From the IMG/VR virus record IMGVR_UViG_3300010392_000254, positions 1-51,345 of that record: 51,345 bases of DNA; one strand, given 5' to 3'. Shown in pieces: positions 34,987 through 49,277 of this stretch (position 1 is the first letter of the stretch; each line of letters starts with the position of its first letter). This stretch comes from a virus. The position numbers and the translations under genes were made by a program. The notes below the pieces were generated by a model. It ran no database searches and was not told the origin of the DNA. It was given only the letters and a program-made list of their open reading frames with translations.

Positions 34987-35005
34987 TTGGCATGATCCTT
35001 GCTTA
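34987..35005 (+). promoter_or_regulatory. Sigma-54-like promoter element 1
   Basis: TTGGCATGATCCTTGCTTA. GG (34989-34990) and GC (35001-35002) are exactly 10 bases apart, the strict -24/-12 geometry, and the bases fit the consensus TGGCAY-N5-TTGCW. Confidence 0.7.
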
Positions 35006-35040
35006 CTCAATCTACTGCAACCCTTATGCCACAAGGGTTC

Positions 35041-35058
35041 TGGCTTAGTTCTTGCTTG
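35041..35058 (+). promoter_or_regulatory. Sigma-54-like promoter element 2
   Basis: TGGCTTAGTTCTTGCTTG. GG at 35042-35043 and GC at 35054-35055 with 10 bases between; only the CA after GGC departs from consensus. Confidence 0.55.
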
Positions 35059-35105
35059 TTACTGGCTCTTACTCCTTGTTATACTATATGTCAACCATTA
35101 TCTTA

Positions 35106-35121
35106 TGTATGCTAGACTACA
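35106..35121. promoter_or_regulatory. Degenerate copy of the 16-bp palindrome
   Basis: TGTATGCTAGACTACA differs at two positions from the perfect TGTATGCTAGCATACA found at 38513. It lies seven bases before sigma-54-like element 3, so a factor bound here could influence it. Confidence 0.45.
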
Positions 35122-35125
35122 TGTA

Positions 35126-35143
35126 TTGGCATGGTTATTGCAT
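35126..35143 (+). promoter_or_regulatory. Sigma-54-like promoter element 3
   Basis: TTGGCATGGTTATTGCAT. GG at 35128-35129 and GC at 35140-35141. Nearly identical to elements 4 and 6, which share TTGGCAT-x-GTTATTGC. Confidence 0.7.
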
Positions 35144-35179
35144 TAGCAATTATGATACCACTATTATACATACTGATAA

Positions 35180-35197
35180 TTGGCATAGTTATTGCAT
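35180..35197 (+). promoter_or_regulatory. Sigma-54-like promoter element 4
   Basis: TTGGCATAGTTATTGCAT. GG at 35182-35183 and GC at 35194-35195. One base different from element 3. Confidence 0.7.
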
Positions 35198-35198
35198 G

Positions 35199-35216
35199 TT
35201 GGTATATATCTTGCAT
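35199..35216 (+). promoter_or_regulatory. Sigma-54-like promoter element 5
   Basis: TTGGTATATATCTTGCAT. GG at 35201-35202 and GC at 35213-35214, starting 19 bases after element 4, so the two could not be occupied together. Confidence 0.55.
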
Positions 35217-35219
35217 AAC

Positions 35220-35237
35220 CTGCATAGTTTATGCCAT
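35220..35237 (-). promoter_or_regulatory. Leftward sigma-54-like promoter element
   Basis: On the - strand the sequence reads TGGCATAAACTATGCAGG with GG and GC 10 bases apart (+ strand CC 35234-35235, GC 35222-35223). It is the only one found pointing to the late operon, whose first gene starts at 34486. Confidence 0.5.
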
Positions 35238-35299
35238 GTCATAATGTATGCCATGTCCTTATATCAATATGATATAGATTGTGGGTATTGCATATAACC

Positions 35300-35470
35300 T
35301 TGATATGTGTTAGTCAAGATCTGACTACTATAATATATAAGTACAATAATCATCTAAGTTATTGATTAATAAAGATAAAGTATTAATTAGTGTCAACATT
35401 CTTTACACTTAAATAAATTTATTATTATTAGTTATCAATAGCTTATGATATGTACCTTAAATAGTGTCAG
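35300..35470. other. Very AT-rich segment, possible replication origin
   Basis: This 170-base stretch is almost entirely A/T (runs such as AATAAATTTATTATTATTAG) and lies between the divergent arms beside the dyads. Easily melted DNA here could serve as origin or as a promoter-opening region. There is no direct evidence for replication initiation. Confidence 0.3.
35389..35409. promoter_or_regulatory. Dyad 1, AGTGT-N11-ACACT
   Basis: AGTGT (35389-35393) and ACACT (35405-35409) are inverted, 11 bases apart, inside a longer repeat beginning GTGTCA and containing CTTTACA. Geometry suits a dimeric activator or repressor, for example the enhancer-binding protein that sigma-54 promoters need. Confidence 0.5.
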
Positions 35471-35483
35471 GTTACTATACACT
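35463..35483. promoter_or_regulatory. Dyad 2, AGTGT-N11-ACACT
   Basis: Same half-sites and same 11-base spacing as dyad 1, 74 bases further on. The match extends one base on each side (TAGTGT and ACACTA). Confidence 0.52.
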
Positions 35484-35520
35484 AGACATTACCTTATAAA
35501 TCAATGACTTAACTGTTTTG

Positions 35521-35541
35521 TGTGTCAGGTTTCTTTACAGT
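35521..35541. promoter_or_regulatory. Dyad 3, degenerate copy
   Basis: TGTGT-N11-ACAGT, eight of ten half-site bases kept, 58 bases after dyad 2. The inner sequence CAGGTTTCTTT resembles that of dyads 1 and 2. Confidence 0.42.
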
Positions 35542-35560
35542 ATAGCTATCCAGTTATGAA

Positions 35561-35574
35561 TTACTACTATGATG
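35561..35574 (+). repeat. Recurrent element TTACTACTATGATG, copy 1
   Basis: The same 14 bases occur at 37761-37774. Close relatives are at 39695 and 42156 (GTACTACTATGAG) and 44312 (TTACTACTACGACG). No clear -35 sequence accompanies them, so function is unknown. Confidence 0.5.
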
Positions 35575-35617
35575 TTTCTACGTGTAACCTACTGTTTTAT
35601 ATACATTTTCTCAATAG

Positions 35618-35635
35618 TTGGCACTGTCAATGCAA
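35618..35635 (+). promoter_or_regulatory. Sigma-54-like promoter element 6
   Basis: TTGGCACTGTCAATGCAA. GG at 35620-35621 and GC at 35632-35633, with the full consensus TGGCAC at -24. Confidence 0.65.
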
Positions 35636-35675
35636 TAGTCTAAGTGTGTCTCGGGGCACTAGCCAAAACCCGAAA

Positions 35676-35687
35676 AGTTCTTTAACA
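35676..35687 (+). promoter_or_regulatory. boxA-like antitermination site 1
   Basis: AGTTCTTTAACA matches 10 of 12 bases of the enterobacterial rrn boxA (TGCTCTTTAACA), the RNA site bound by NusB-NusE. It lies downstream of most of the sigma-54-like elements, where it would be transcribed rightward. Confidence 0.5.
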
Positions 35688-35727
35688 GTTATGCGAATGC
35701 CTTATAAGTTGGTTATGGTTTTGATAG

Positions 35728-35745
35728 TTGGCATAGTTATTGCCA
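35728..35745 (+). promoter_or_regulatory. Sigma-54-like promoter element 7
   Basis: TTGGCATAGTTATTGCCA. GG at 35730-35731 and GC at 35742-35743. The most downstream of the array, 145 bases ahead of the better boxA. Confidence 0.7.
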
Positions 35746-35887
35746 CTAGCAAGATCCATGCCAATAGGTACTGGAGCCAGTGTTGCTGTATCCAGTGGTC
35801 AAGTAGGCTCTTTTGGGTGCAAGGATTGCGTTACTAATGGGAGAGTTGAAAGGCTGATACCCGCCATGAAATACATGGTTTTAGGGA

Positions 35888-35901
35888 CGCTCTTTAACAA
35901 T
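35888..35901 (+). promoter_or_regulatory. boxA-like antitermination site 2
   Basis: CGCTCTTTAACA matches 11 of 12 bases of the rrn boxA and continues with ATTT as E. coli rrn leaders do. Transcripts from all seven rightward sigma-54-like elements would contain it. It should load NusB-NusE and help host polymerase read through the structured leader. Confidence 0.62.
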
Positions 35902-36214: not shown

Positions 36215-36365
36215 AATAGGGTGGATAGTTTACTATAGGTATACTGGCAGATATAGCTTGTGCCTATGGTATAACAAGCAAGAACTCCCAAACTGGGGGA
36301 TAAACAGGCAGTCTATAGATTAGCCTAACTTGCTAGTGTATCTATAGTAAACTGTCCATCCTATT
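36215..36365 (+). ncRNA. Structured RNA closed by a 31-bp stem
   Basis: Arm 36215-36245 pairs with 36335-36365 over 31 positions. The only four non-Watson-Crick pairs are G-U wobbles, so the RNA helix is uninterrupted. The 89-base interior has its own hairpins (GCTTGT with ACAAGC; CTCCC with GGGGG; GGC with GCC). A stem like this is a classic RNase III substrate, like those around rRNAs or between T7 early genes. It ends 51 bases before the first early gene. Confidence 0.72.
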
Positions 36366-36416
36366 ACTTATTCTTAAATAGTATTACTTCTTTAAATTTA
36401 ATTGTGGAGGTGTATT

Positions 36417-36587
36417 ATGTGGATAATTATAGAGTCTGCTATGGGGTGGCCTGACGAGCCACTAAACTATGGATTCTTTAACAAGTTTGAAGTAGACAAG
36501 GAGATAGTCAAGTTAGAAAGAGAGCAAAAAGGTTTAAGTGTCTCTAGACGTGTAAGATATAAGTCTATGTATATTAAGAGAGGGTGA
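36417..36587 (+). CDS. Hypothetical protein, 56 aa (first early gene)
   Basis: The start ATG has GGAGGTG 7 bases upstream; a longer frame from a TTG lacks a site. The protein (MWIIIESAMGWPDEPLNY) continues with a basic C-terminal helix (VSRRVRYKSMYIKRG). As the first rightward gene after the leader RNA it may be a host-takeover protein. No family recognised. A boxA-like TTCTTTAACA occurs by chance or design at 36474-36483. Confidence 0.65.
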   Translation: MWIIIESAMGWPDEPLNYGFFNKFEVDKEIVKLEREQKGLSVSRRVRYKSMYIKRG

Positions 36588-36591
36588 TATC

Positions 36592-36690
36592 ATGTTTAAT
36601 GATGACATTCTATACGTCCCTGAAACTGGAGGGGCAATCCTTTTTAATCTTAATGGAGATGTAGTCTATCTCTATCATTGGAGTATGTGA
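36592..36690 (+). CDS. 32-residue hypothetical peptide
   Basis: AGAGAGGGTG precedes the ATG by 6 bases, and the stop is followed two bases later by the next ATG. The peptide (FNDDILYVPETGGAILFN) has alternating hydrophobic residues, perhaps a small beta hairpin. Function unknown. Confidence 0.5.
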   Translation: MFNDDILYVPETGGAILFNLNGDVVYLYHWSM

Positions 36691-36692
36691 TT

Positions 36693-36845
36693 ATGAAGAA
36701 AGAGTTTTATCATATAAGTGTGGCAAAGTTTAGTAAAGAAGGAGTAATATCCTTTACTTTTACAGTACCTACCTTCTATTCAATGATAGAAATTGTAGAG
36801 CGATACTCTGTCAGGGGATGGTCGGTAGCTACAGGCAAGTGGTAA
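36693..36845 (+). CDS. Hypothetical protein, 50 aa
   Basis: Begins two bases after the preceding stop, so probably translated by coupling. The protein (KKEFYHISVAKFSKEGVISF, then RYSVRGWSVATGKW) looks like a small beta-alpha domain. It is followed by a small spacer and the palindrome at 36931. Function unknown. Confidence 0.55.
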   Translation: MKKEFYHISVAKFSKEGVISFTFTVPTFYSMIEIVERYSVRGWSVATGKW

Positions 36846-36930
36846 CATGTGTACTAAAGGAGTAGTACTATTTAAGAGTAAGTATGAAGTTTACTGACTA
36901 CCTTAAGGGGTGGTCGGTTTAAATTGTGGA

Positions 36931-36946
36931 TGTATTCTAGCATACA
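36931..36946. promoter_or_regulatory. 16-bp palindrome TGTATTCTAGCATACA upstream of the 36984 gene
   Basis: Ends 37 bases before the ATG at 36984, almost the same distance as at 38513/38565 (36 bases). The constant spacing suggests that it marks a promoter or operator for early genes. Confidence 0.6.
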
Positions 36947-36983
36947 TTCACTTAACATTAAGCAGAAAGAAGAGGACAACATC

Positions 36984-37697
36984 ATGTCTGAAATAAACGA
37001 GTATGCAGTAATTGACGATGACAAAGAAGTTGTTGTCAAATTCACTGACTATACAAAAGTAAAAGATCACAGCTTCTTAACTATCTTAAAGCTGGCATAC
37101 CAGCAAGATGAAGCAGCCAAGGTAACAAGGGAAGCAGGGACAGGAATCAGTGGGCTTATAGCAGATAAAGCTATCGCTGACTTCTACCTATGCACTGGAA
37201 AAGATCTCCGATTCCCTAATGAAGTAGTTGCTATTGGCGCTTTCCTTGCTGCAATGGGCAATGACGAGGCACGTTTCAAAGCCTCAACTGGTGTAGATGC
37301 CTTGCCTCGTTGCTGGACACAAGCCAAGTCTAACATCGTAGCTTGCTGGGAAGCGGGCGGTAAACTTGACGAGTTAGGCACAGTTAGCAAGATGAAGGCT
37401 TGGTCTAAGGCTGAGAAAGAGAGAGTTAAGCAAGCTAAACTAGCGGAACAAATGGAAGCGTTCGGCCAACACAACAAGGAAGAGATCACCACTATAGATG
37501 GTGACGGCAACACTGATGCTGGTAAACCTGAGTTCGACGACGACGTAGGCAAGGCTATCTCTCACATTGAAGAGATGATCACGGAACTACGCGAACTAGG
37601 TCGAGAAGGTCAGGTGTTGGTATCATTGACCAAGGCCGAGGGAGCTATCGAGAACGTACTTAATAGCTTGATCCAGTCAGCGGCTAAGGCAAGTTAA
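36984..37697 (+). CDS. Hypothetical early protein, 237 aa
   Basis: Preceded by the palindrome and an AGAGGA site and followed at once by a strong terminator, so it is a single-gene unit and probably strongly expressed. The N-terminal half is compact (TILKLAYQQDEAAKVTREAG, GISGLIADKAIADFYLC). The C-terminal half is charged helix (KAWSKAEKERVKQAKLAEQM, then HIEEMITELRELGRE). No nuclease or kinase motif visible. Function unknown. Confidence 0.8.
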   Translation: MSEINEYAVIDDDKEVVVKFTDYTKVKDHSFLTILKLAYQQDEAAKVTREAGTGISGLIADKAIADFYLCTGKDLRFPNEVVAIGAFLAAMGNDEARFKASTGVDALPRCWTQAKSNIVACWEAGGKLDELGTVSKMKAWSKAEKERVKQAKLAEQMEAFGQHNKEEITTIDGDGNTDAGKPEFDDDVGKAISHIEEMITELRELGREGQVLVSLTKAEGAIENVLNSLIQSAAKAS

Positions 37698-38313: not shown

Positions 38314-38486
38314 ATAAACAAAAAGCGTTGAGAATCATAGATAGTTATGAGAACAGTGCAGCTATCAGGCATAGGTTCGAATATCTAACTATGCATATGA
38401 ATGACGATGATGACTTCGAAGATATTCTTTGGGAGTCTACCGTTGACGTTCTATGTACTGAAATCGAAAGTCCTACTGACTCCTAA
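38310..38486 (+). CDS. Hypothetical acidic protein, 58 aa
   Basis: Coupled to the preceding gene (ATGA). It has an N-terminal helix (NKQKALRIIDSYENSAAIRH) and an acidic C-terminal half (MNDDDDFEDILWESTVDVL). The stop lies in a hairpin (GACTCCTAAC with GTTAGTGGGTC) that may be a weak terminator ending near 38500. No family recognised. Confidence 0.62.
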   Translation: MNKQKALRIIDSYENSAAIRHRFEYLTMHMNDDDDFEDILWESTVDVLCTEIESPTDS

Positions 38487-38512
38487 CGGGGTTAGTGGGT
38501 CTTAATTCTAGA

Positions 38513-38528
38513 TGTATGCTAGCATACA
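38513..38528. promoter_or_regulatory. Perfect 16-bp palindrome TGTATGCTAGCATACA
   Basis: Perfect two-fold symmetric site ending 36 bases before the ATG at 38565. It is the only exact palindrome among the copies at 35106, 36007, 36931 and 40655, and probably shows the ideal binding site of a dimeric regulator. Confidence 0.65.
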
Positions 38529-38564
38529 TTGTGTTAATTACTTACTAACTAAGAGGAAAGAGTT

Positions 38565-40468: not shown

Positions 40469-40494
40469 AGAAGAGTAAGTAGGTTTTAGTGTGT

Positions 40495-40590
40495 ATGTTA
40501 GGGTATACGTTACTGTTTCTAAGAAGACGACACTTGTTCAGTGGAGGAATCTTAGACAGAGCGGCTAAGAAAGGTGCAAGCAATCTCTAG
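40495..40590 (+). CDS. 31-residue basic peptide (tentative)
   Basis: ATG after AGTAGG at a long spacing. The peptide (MLGYTLLFLRRRHLFSGG) has a short hydrophobic start and an RRR turn. The weak ribosome site and small size make it doubtful. Confidence 0.3.
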   Translation: MLGYTLLFLRRRHLFSGGILDRAAKKGASNL

Positions 40591-40654
40591 CAATAATGTA
40601 CAACCATCCCTCTAGTAGAGCCCGATTCTAGAAAAGGTTTGAATGACAGATGGA

Positions 40655-40670
40655 CGTATTCTAGCATACA
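40655..40670. promoter_or_regulatory. Copy of the 16-bp palindrome upstream of the regulator gene
   Basis: CGTATTCTAGCATACA, two bases from the perfect palindrome, 124 bases before the HTH regulator gene. If the regulator binds this site it would control itself. Confidence 0.52.
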
Positions 40671-40706
40671 CTCTAAAGCCTACTTGCTTGATGGCTTAAC
40701 AAACAT

Positions 40707-40793: not shown

Positions 40794-41471
40794 ATGGAAA
40801 CTAGAGGAAGACCGATCTCAGACAGTAAACTTGCAGGGGGTGTAAAGATACCTAAGGAGGTTGCAACCAAGATCTTCAGATTCTTGATGGAAAAAGCTGA
40901 GTTAAGTAATTCTGAAATCTCTAGAGTAACAGGATTGCCGTACCATACTGTAATCAATCTGATATACCGTAGTGGTTTTAGGCGTAATAAGAACTCTCAT
41001 TTAGGTAAAGATCTAGACCTCCTGAGAGCTTTAGGAAAAACCATGACAAGGTATGAAATATCTCAGCATCTGAATAAGTCCTATTCGTGGGTATCTTACA
41101 GATGTAGACATTTTCTAATAGAAACTGTTCAGACGGATCTGTCAGAAAGGAATGCCAAACCTATTAAGAATGGATTGGGTGTAGATAATAAGACAGTAAT
41201 AAGGCTTTATAGATTACTCAGGATAGTTTGTAATTTTAGAGTCAAAAGTATTTGCCCAGTGCTAGGTATCTCTCGTTACTCAGCACTCTCGATGAATCAG
41301 AGACATGTTAGGGAAAATTATAATTACTCTCCCTTATCAGACGAGGAGAAGAAGGAGATAATAGCTTCTCAACTGTTTCACAGGTACAAGAAGTCTATGA
41401 GATATTATTCTCATAAATACAATCGTCCACTAAGAATGATAGAATTATTCTGTCAAGGAGAAAAATCATGA
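40794..41471 (+). CDS. Multi-helix-turn-helix DNA-binding protein, 225 aa
   Basis: Likely phage transcription regulator. The ATG at 40794 follows TGGAGG by 7 bases. Three helix-turn-helix-like segments can be seen: LSNSEISRVTGLPYHTVINL (about residues 38-57), MTRYEISQHLNKSYSWVSYR (about 83-102), and VKSICPVLGISRYSALS (about 150-166). Tandem HTH units of this kind occur in sigma-like and homeodomain-like DNA binders. With no phage RNA polymerase, this is the best candidate to direct host polymerase, perhaps through the TGTATGCTAGCATACA sites. It overlaps the next gene as ATGA. Confidence 0.72.
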   Translation: METRGRPISDSKLAGGVKIPKEVATKIFRFLMEKAELSNSEISRVTGLPYHTVINLIYRSGFRRNKNSHLGKDLDLLRALGKTMTRYEISQHLNKSYSWVSYRCRHFLIETVQTDLSERNAKPIKNGLGVDNKTVIRLYRLLRIVCNFRVKSICPVLGISRYSALSMNQRHVRENYNYSPLSDEEKKEIIASQLFHRYKKSMRYYSHKYNRPLRMIELFCQGEKS

Positions 41472-48286: not shown

Positions 48287-49037
48287 TAAAGCTCTCCTTA
48301 ATCTGCCAAACCGGATGGTGAGTCCGGCGACCTGGAATAGCAGGCGGTTAAAAGAGATGAGAGAGCTTACGTCAACAAGTCTATGGAAAAACTGAGAAAG
48401 AAAATATCATCAAGGTAATTCCCTTTACCCACAGTGAGTACCCAGTGAAAGCTGAAAGGGTAAGTCCTTGACATCGAAGTCTCAGTGGTCCGGTACAAGA
48501 TAGCAGATCCTGTTCGGAAAGACAAGAGAACGGTTAAGACACTTGCGAAACCGGCGTAGAATAAGACTGCAGGACATTACCTTATTAAGACCCTCCCCAC
48601 TTGCTTAAACGGATCGGCAAATGCCGTTTTTCCGCTATATCGTTTGCGGAATTGTCACATAGCTGAAATAAAGGTGACGGAGTGGGATATGTTTTGATAA
48701 GAAGAATCTTTTGTATGGGTAGATACAGATGATTAAACAGAATATAAGAGATAAGCAACGCAGAGACTCTGACAAATAATAGGCTTCATGGAGTTTATTA
48801 TGGGGTTAGCGACCCACAGATATACGGAGATCATGTCATAAATGGCTAGGGCAGCTATGCTATGTTGTGATTTTGAAACATCACAAAGTAAGCAGTTTAT
48901 CTCTATCTGTAGAAGTTTGAACTAGTGGACAGCTGAGTTAGGTCTAGTAAGGGTATTTGGTTTCCTCCAAACTAATCAAGTATTCTTTCCTTACCTAACT
49001 TAGCTGTCTTTCGTGGATAGCTAAGTAGGAACTAATT
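48287..49037 (+). ncRNA. Large ornate non-coding RNA candidate (about 750 bases)
   Basis: No credible gene. Nested helices: domain 1, AAGCTCTC (48289-48296) with GAGAGCTT (48361-48368), enclosing CTGCC with GGCGG and CCGGA (48311-48315) with TCCGG (48323-48327). Domain 2, AAGGTAAT (48412-48419) with ATTACCTT (48576-48583), enclosing CCCTTT with AAAGGG, GTCCT (48464-48468) with AGGAC (48571-48575), and CCGGT (48490-48494) with ACCGG (48550-48554). A CGGC-AAAT-GCCG-T5 terminator-like hairpin (48615-48631) and a 15-pair hairpin (next entry) follow. The architecture is like phage large ornate RNAs (GOLLD, ROOL), but I cannot assign it to either. Confidence 0.6.
48928..49008 (+). terminator. Long hairpin at the end of the RNA candidate
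   Basis: GACAGCTGAGTTAGG (48928-48942) pairs with CCTAACTTAGCTGTC (48994-49008), 15 pairs with one G-U, extended by TAAGG with CCTTA across a five-base bulge; TTTCGT follows. Either a weak terminator or a processing stem. Confidence 0.55.
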
Positions 49038-49277
49038 ATGGAATATTTAAAGCAAATGTGTGCCTGCGCTTTAGGTACATTTCTCGGGATAATGGTGTAT
49101 ATGTGTCTATTCACCACTAACCTGGCAAGCCCGTCTGGGGCCGGAGTTCCTGCAGTAAGTCATACTTTAATGTATGAGGTACAAGATCAGTATATGTATC
49201 GGGAGATTAAACCTCGTCTCCCCAAGGAACCTCCTAAGCACATAGGAAATAAAAATACCGGTGTCATGCGAATTTAA
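49038..49277 (+). CDS. Small membrane-anchored protein, 79 aa
   Basis: AGTAGGA lies 9 bases before the ATG. One membrane segment (ALGTFLGIMVYMCLF, about residues 11-25), then a Pro/Lys-rich C-terminus (IKPRLPKEPPKHIGNKNTGV). Could be exported with an envelope-facing tail. Function unknown. Confidence 0.62.
   Translation: MEYLKQMCACALGTFLGIMVYMCLFTTNLASPSGAGVPAVSHTLMYEVQDQYMYREIKPRLPKEPPKHIGNKNTGVMRI

Follow-up and report, generated by a model that had tools for sequence, protein, structure and literature searches.

In transcripts of bacterial rRNA operons, 16S and 23S rRNA are flanked by leader-trailer helices of 25-40 bp, which carry the site where RNase III cuts them (PMC10250234, PMC4807359). 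NusB and NusE, seated on boxA, are tethered to RNA polymerase via SuhB, an arrangement thought to aid the pairing of distant strands (PMC10250234, PMC4807359). This combination of boxA with leader-trailer processing is mostly seen as reserved for making ribosomes. The nut sites of lambdoid phages and the put sites of phage HK022 are RNA elements of early leaders; nut includes a boxA and depends on an N-type protein together with a short boxB hairpin, put consists of two short hairpins, and to our knowledge neither has helices of 30 bp. The RNase III sites of phage T7 are local hairpins between genes. An account of the nut antitermination site is given in PMC11893012.

Here we compare these systems with a locus in the window, by which we mean the whole 51,345-nt stretch analysed, an IMG/VR virus record (IMGVR_UViG_3300010392_000254). 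Its feature of interest, a very long stem in the leader of the early genes, would work like an rRNA operon leader and is not itself an rRNA operon. We put at roughly 55% the probability that early transcripts of this phage borrow rRNA-style boxA-Nus tethering together with RNase III leader-trailer processing, and that the stem, helix 1, is one such processing hairpin.

Stems in the early leader of the window

Matches of the portal and terminase to those of Zobellviridae (ICP2, CW02, PA11, cobaviruses and oyster-virome phages) mark the phage as Zobellviridae-like. Structural genes run leftward up to 34.5 kb and early genes rightward from 36.4 kb, with a non-coding leader of 1.7 kb between them. 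The gamma-proteobacterial boxA consensus GYTCTTTAANA (PMC5725501) is matched at just two places in the window, both in this leader and on the + strand (Table 1), against 0.39 expected by chance on both strands; two were reached in 6 of 100 shuffles.

When every helix on either strand of the 51-kb window was ranked, helix 1 came out at the top by length as well as by score. Its 36 bp, six of them G-U, run without interruption and score 39.0; when the whole window was dinucleotide-shuffled 24 times, no uninterrupted helix was longer than 22 bp and no score exceeded 22.3. The region 36215-36365 is predicted to fold into a single 36-bp stem with a three-hairpin multiloop. Its minimum free energy on the sense strand is -76.8 kcal/mol (z -10), equalled by none of 200 shuffles, and the antisense strand folds much worse (-50.5 kcal/mol, z -5.2). 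The first-pass annotation had described a 31-bp stem with four G-U pairs around a structured core of 89 nt. Its arms and end points are correct, and the outer 31 pairs indeed contain exactly four G-U and no other mismatch. It nevertheless understated the stem: five further pairs extend the helix to 36 bp and leave a core of 79 nt.

Table 1. Coordinates of boxA sites, stems and enclosed reading frames in the early arm of the window
Feature	Coordinates	Strand	Evidence
boxA 1, GTTCTTTAACA	35677..35687	+	match to GYTCTTTAANA
boxA 2, GCTCTTTAACA, continues AATTTGG	35889..35899	+	match to GYTCTTTAANA
helix 1, 5' arm	36215..36250	+	helix scan, fold
helix 1, core of 79 nt, non-coding, three predicted hairpins	36251..36329	+	fold; ATG frames
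helix 1, 3' arm	36330..36365	+	helix scan, fold
helix 2, 5' arm, abutting helix 1	36365..36394	+	helix scan
small ORF of 56 aa inside helix 2	36417..36587	+	ORF list; PHROG-negative
small ORF of 32 aa inside helix 2	36592..36690	+	ORF list; PHROG-negative
small ORF of 50 aa inside helix 2	36693..36845	+	ORF list; PHROG-negative
helix 2, 3' arm	36855..36884	+	helix scan
third stem, arms 40473-40506/40656-40689, loop 149	40473..40689	+	-79.3 kcal/mol
fourth, weaker stem; 17-bp outer helix, inner part bulged	48927..49009	+	z -4.8

Helix 1 encloses no gene, the longest ATG frame of its core being two codons. Searches of the region with the Rfam 15 covariance models gave no family match. A terminator is ruled out, as a T-run is absent after the 3' arm, and a tRNA or tmRNA is ruled out by a tRNA/tmRNA search that found none in the region. 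Folded alone, the core does form three predicted hairpins, but at -23.1 kcal/mol and z -2.4 (equalled by 4 of 200 shuffles) this predicted structure is only moderately above chance. The first-pass annotation had proposed that the core could be a stable small RNA released by RNase III; taken further, such an RNA would act in trans, either on the host or on the phage. The hairpins are consistent with such a role, as are the similar non-coding cores of two units in contig L293 (see below). However, besides the modest fold and the lack of an Rfam match, no conserved copy of the core sequence was found, and the non-coding cores of look-alike stems range in length from 48 to 260 nt; we therefore consider a dedicated small RNA improbable.

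The second-best helix of the window, helix 2, begins at the very base where helix 1 ends. It comprises 30 bp with three G-U pairs and is free of mismatches, and its loop contains exactly three small ORFs. A Shine-Dalgarno-like GGAGG lies 11 nt past the 5' arm, just upstream of the first of these ORFs, and the stop codon of the last is 9 nt ahead of the 3' arm. A PHROG search with the three encoded proteins returned no match. Third in rank is a 34-nt stem just ahead of a D5-like HTH gene at about 40794. The fourth stem sits 28 nt 5' of an ORF at 49038; its helix score of 20.2 is inside the window-shuffle range, though its fold stands out from shuffles. All four stems lie in the early arm, on its + strand.

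On any one strand, a DNA inverted repeat in decay should accumulate as many G-T as A-C mismatches. We used a mismatch scan that scored G-U and A-C alike, and tallied the results by hand. On the + strand, which is the early sense, the three longest stems of the window hold 15 transition-type mismatches, 14 of them G-U and one A-C (p = 0.001). Among non-redundant stems of relatives and window together, the early strand has 53 G-U and 8 A-C (p = 3e-9). This preponderance of G-U over A-C in the transcript sense argues that pairing has been selected in RNA.

Comparison among relatives points the same way. In PA11, K4 and HHBS51_1, every change within the 20 bp that their stems have in common keeps the pair, and two changes are two-sided (T-A to G-U, G-C to C-G). 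The differences in the second stem of PA11, PP21 and DMTU_1 are likewise all pair-keeping. Among ICP2 variants, two of three changes keep or improve pairs, and three variants have lost the terminal pair. Contigs L266 and L270, of e14-like E. coli prophages, are set apart in their boxA-anchored stem by two changes, both two-sided. Together with the mismatch bias, these patterns support the earlier claim that selection acts on RNA, not on DNA.

For the window's own stem, searches of phage records with the region (blastn) and with 21 kb (megablast) found nothing, and a 14-mer from the arm gave chance matches alone. The neighbouring 237-aa protein has no relative in IMG/VR, the D5-like protein was unmatched in 31 related records, and a search with the CTAG palindrome described below hit one unrelated contig. 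The sole near-identical contig, L007, whose terminase and tail protein are 100% identical, ends before the leader. Of the covariation that the first-pass annotation had named as a check, what is seen are solely pair-preserving changes in the related PA11-type stems, two of them two-sided; the searches gave no homologue of the window stem and hence no direct covariation for helix 1 or its core.

An inverted repeat acting at the DNA level, as transposon-like terminal repeats or as a recombination or replication site, would also fold on both strands, and the leader contains other repeats. Yet the 14:1 bias belongs to one strand, helix 1 has no second copy in the genome or in phage records, and helix 2 is placed exactly around the ORFs and their ribosome-binding site. 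We regard a DNA-level role as very improbable, and reject its specific form as a miniature inverted-repeat or transposon-like element on the single copy and the strand-specific G-U.

boxA and long stems in other phages

Early-region stems of 20-44 nt were found in the relatives PA11, K4, ICP2, PQ867844 and contig L174. Pseudomonas phage PA11 has two units in its leader, at a place equivalent to that in the window: one boxA leads directly into a stem of 24 bp with a 73-aa ORF inside, and a second boxA into a stem of 26 bp that encloses a 49-aa ORF (z -4.7 and -7.0 for the boxA-anchored pairing); K4, PP21 and DMTU_1 retain this arrangement. ICP2 also has two boxAs, the first of them with a bulged, boxA-anchored stem immediately behind it (z -2.9), and its gene 26 is preceded by a hairpin of 23 bp. 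In PQ867844, the first four early ORFs are consecutive and each is bracketed by a stem of 23-27 nt, and in L174 a 44-nt stem around a non-coding core of 259 nt ends 16 nt before an ATG. Six further Zobellviridae sampled (PQ867842, PS32B.11, 1.264.O, 521E56-1, VP41s3 and PQ867843) have no long early stem; the trait is therefore patchy and not a family-wide necessity. Rfam searches in the relatives gave tRNAs only. In CW02, a 19-bp stem (L145 44035-44194) ends exactly at the start of an annotated tRNA-Arg and is possibly a tRNA-processing stem.

Units of the PA11 kind extend to unrelated phages. The PA11 boxA and 5' arm are 85-86% identical in the T7-like phage phiPLS27 and in the 76-kb HHBS51_1. 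HHBS51_1 closes a 20-bp stem, and the phiPLS27 record is too short for a stem test. The T7-like Pectobacterium phage DU_PP_II has a boxA, a 22-nt stem around a 75-aa ORF and a second boxA after this unit, and the 104-kb phage contig L289 has a boxA and a 20-nt stem with a 104-aa ORF inside. A boxA directly before a stem that brackets a small ORF is thus found in PA11 and K4 and, outside their lineage, in HHBS51_1, DU_PP_II and the 104-kb phage. We found the units of PA11, K4 and DU_PP_II in the present analysis; they are unannotated in their records. L293 carries two tandem units, each with a boxA and a 22-30-nt stem around a non-coding core of about 80 nt, and is the closest look-alike of the 36-bp stem of the window.

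A boxA pattern scan of IMG/VR yielded 81 sites, of which 9 precede a stem scoring at least 16 (99th percentile of 162 random positions, 15.1). These 9 include DU_PP_II, the 104-kb phage and L293, but also several close copies of a single prophage type. An extended-boxA scan of genome contigs found four loci. In an E. coli e14-like prophage (L377 5022-5595) and also in L266, L270 and L300, a boxA and a 13-19-bp stem lie between ymfK and yfdP, and this stem encloses a gene on the opposite strand. Close to a contig end, L183 (103-174) has a hairpin of 34 bp that is almost perfect and has a loop of 4 nt.

Set beside an rRNA operon leader, the window has a gamma-proteobacterial boxA upstream on the same strand, and the same presumed transcript, as its helices. 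These are made by complementary flanks, exceed the roughly 17-25 bp expected of rRNA-type helices and, at 30 and 36 bp, fall within or near the 25-40 bp of rRNA operons (PMC10250234); helix 2, moreover, closes a long loop around a product. Unlike rRNA leaders, the stems enclose a non-coding core and small ORFs, not rRNA or tRNA. Nor is a boxA near a 5' arm: the two sites are 316 and 528 nt upstream of helix 1, and an anchored-stem test found no significant stem right after either, whereas boxA adjoins the stem in PA11, K4, HHBS51_1, DU_PP_II, L289 and L293. The boxAs and stems of the window are linked solely by sharing one presumed transcript. The rRNA likeness proposed in the first-pass annotation therefore holds for the two upstream boxAs, and is strengthened by the phages, related and unrelated, with boxA directly before a long stem, but it does not extend to a boxA-stem junction in the window itself.

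The PA11/K4 and DU_PP_II units share with the window their place in the early region, a long RNA stem that brackets a small ORF, and a tandem arrangement; they differ in having boxA immediately before the 5' arm and in lacking a separate 36-bp non-coding hairpin. The T7 early leader, too, resembles the window in its boxA (at 814, about 110 nt 5' of gene 0.3), its early polycistronic transcript and a structure just before the first early gene, but it has no long-range stem there. T7 thus illustrates another reading, in which the stem, as in T7 early mRNAs, does no more than trim the mRNA 5' end as a site for RNase III or protect it as a stabilising hairpin, boxA serves independently in general early-operon antitermination, and the rRNA likeness is superficial. 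The gap of more than 300 nt between boxA and stem in the window, a helix 1 without an enclosed gene, and the recurrence of hairpins directly 5' of a gene (ICP2, L174, and the window at 40473 and 48927) all fit this reading. It leaves unexplained the long-range helix 2 with its three ORFs, the four gene-bracketing stems of PQ867844 and the abutment of boxA and stem in the six phages and contigs named above. We judge it unlikely, although it is the strongest of the competing explanations.

As an RNA element of an early leader, the locus also invites comparison with put, and the folded core might itself modify RNA polymerase in cis. The locus lies where the early operon begins and has a multi-hairpin core, both of which would suit such an antiterminator, as would the fact that no phage RNA polymerase gene was seen among the window proteins scanned. 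However, a 36-bp stem is foreign to put anatomy, the helix 1 fold does not consist of two short adjacent hairpins of the kind that binds RNA polymerase, and the boxA sites already provide a route to host factors. A put-like role is, to our mind, less probable still than a small RNA.

Proposed processing of the early transcript

The phage units share the parts of an rRNA leader in the same order, and it is for this reason that we propose use of the rRNA pathway by early phage transcripts. Host RNA polymerase would transcribe the non-coding leader, and the two rRNA-type boxAs in the transcript could recruit NusB-NusE(S10)-SuhB. The transcript is predicted to fold into the 36-bp stem with its non-coding core and the adjoining 30-bp long-range stem, which would tie together both ends of a three-gene mini-operon and might close co-transcriptionally after boxA has loaded the Nus complex. 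RNase III would then cut the leader-trailer helices, as in pre-16S and pre-23S rRNA. The leader would be removed and the first early mRNA set free, its ends base-paired and resistant to exonucleases, which may stabilise it. Helix 1 would act as a non-coding unit between the leader and the first mRNA; its core would be freed, either as a by-product or as a small RNA that might persist. The step from likeness to mechanism is one that we infer, and its weak point in the window is that the boxAs do not adjoin the stems.

We advance a wider proposal more tentatively, at somewhat less than even odds: several unrelated phage lineages may package individual early genes as rRNA-like cassettes of boxA, long leader-trailer helix and small ORF, routing their first mRNAs through host Nus/SuhB transcription of rRNA and RNase III maturation, and the window would have a derived version to which a non-coding cassette of 36 bp has been added. 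Each part is already known; on their combination in phage early mRNAs, a literature search of limited reach, with most subscription journals outside it, gave no account of boxA joined to a long stem in the early leader of a phage, nor any of transcription in Zobellviridae. If the proposal is true, phages have copied for their first genes the most active transcription and maturation pathway of the cell. Their transcripts of 200-500 nt would then be models for how boxA tethering brings together the strands of a long-range helix, which is hard to study on 1.5-kb rRNA, and the signature would offer a computable means of spotting short, poorly annotated early phage genes.

Further motifs of the early arm

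The palindrome TGTATNCTAGNATACA occurs at five sites in the window (35105, 36007, 36931, 38513 and 40655), giving 10 strand hits where 0.3 are expected. It lies about 50 nt 5' of the genes at 36984 and 38565 and also before the D5-like HTH gene at 40794; from this placement it is probably an operator of the D5-like HTH regulator. Two of the sites fall within a 64-nt repeat (36892-36955 and 38474-38537, 73% identical), in which a terminator-like hairpin is followed by the CTAG palindrome, 5' of two early genes. PQ867844 carries TGTTGTCTAGACAACA in a similar role, and its 38-nt stem with a 47-nt loop (L143 42238-42360), just before ORF59, overlaps a CTAG palindrome and resembles the window at 40473-40689.

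Motifs of the sigma-54 -24/-12 type (TGGCAYR-N4-TTGCW) cluster at 34988-35763, where all five exact matches of the window are found; with one mismatch allowed, 9 of 11 lie there, against 1.3 expected. Similar TTGGCAYG motifs are present in the leaders of PQ867844, L174 and PA11, and the phiPLS27 record annotates rpoN-type promoters.
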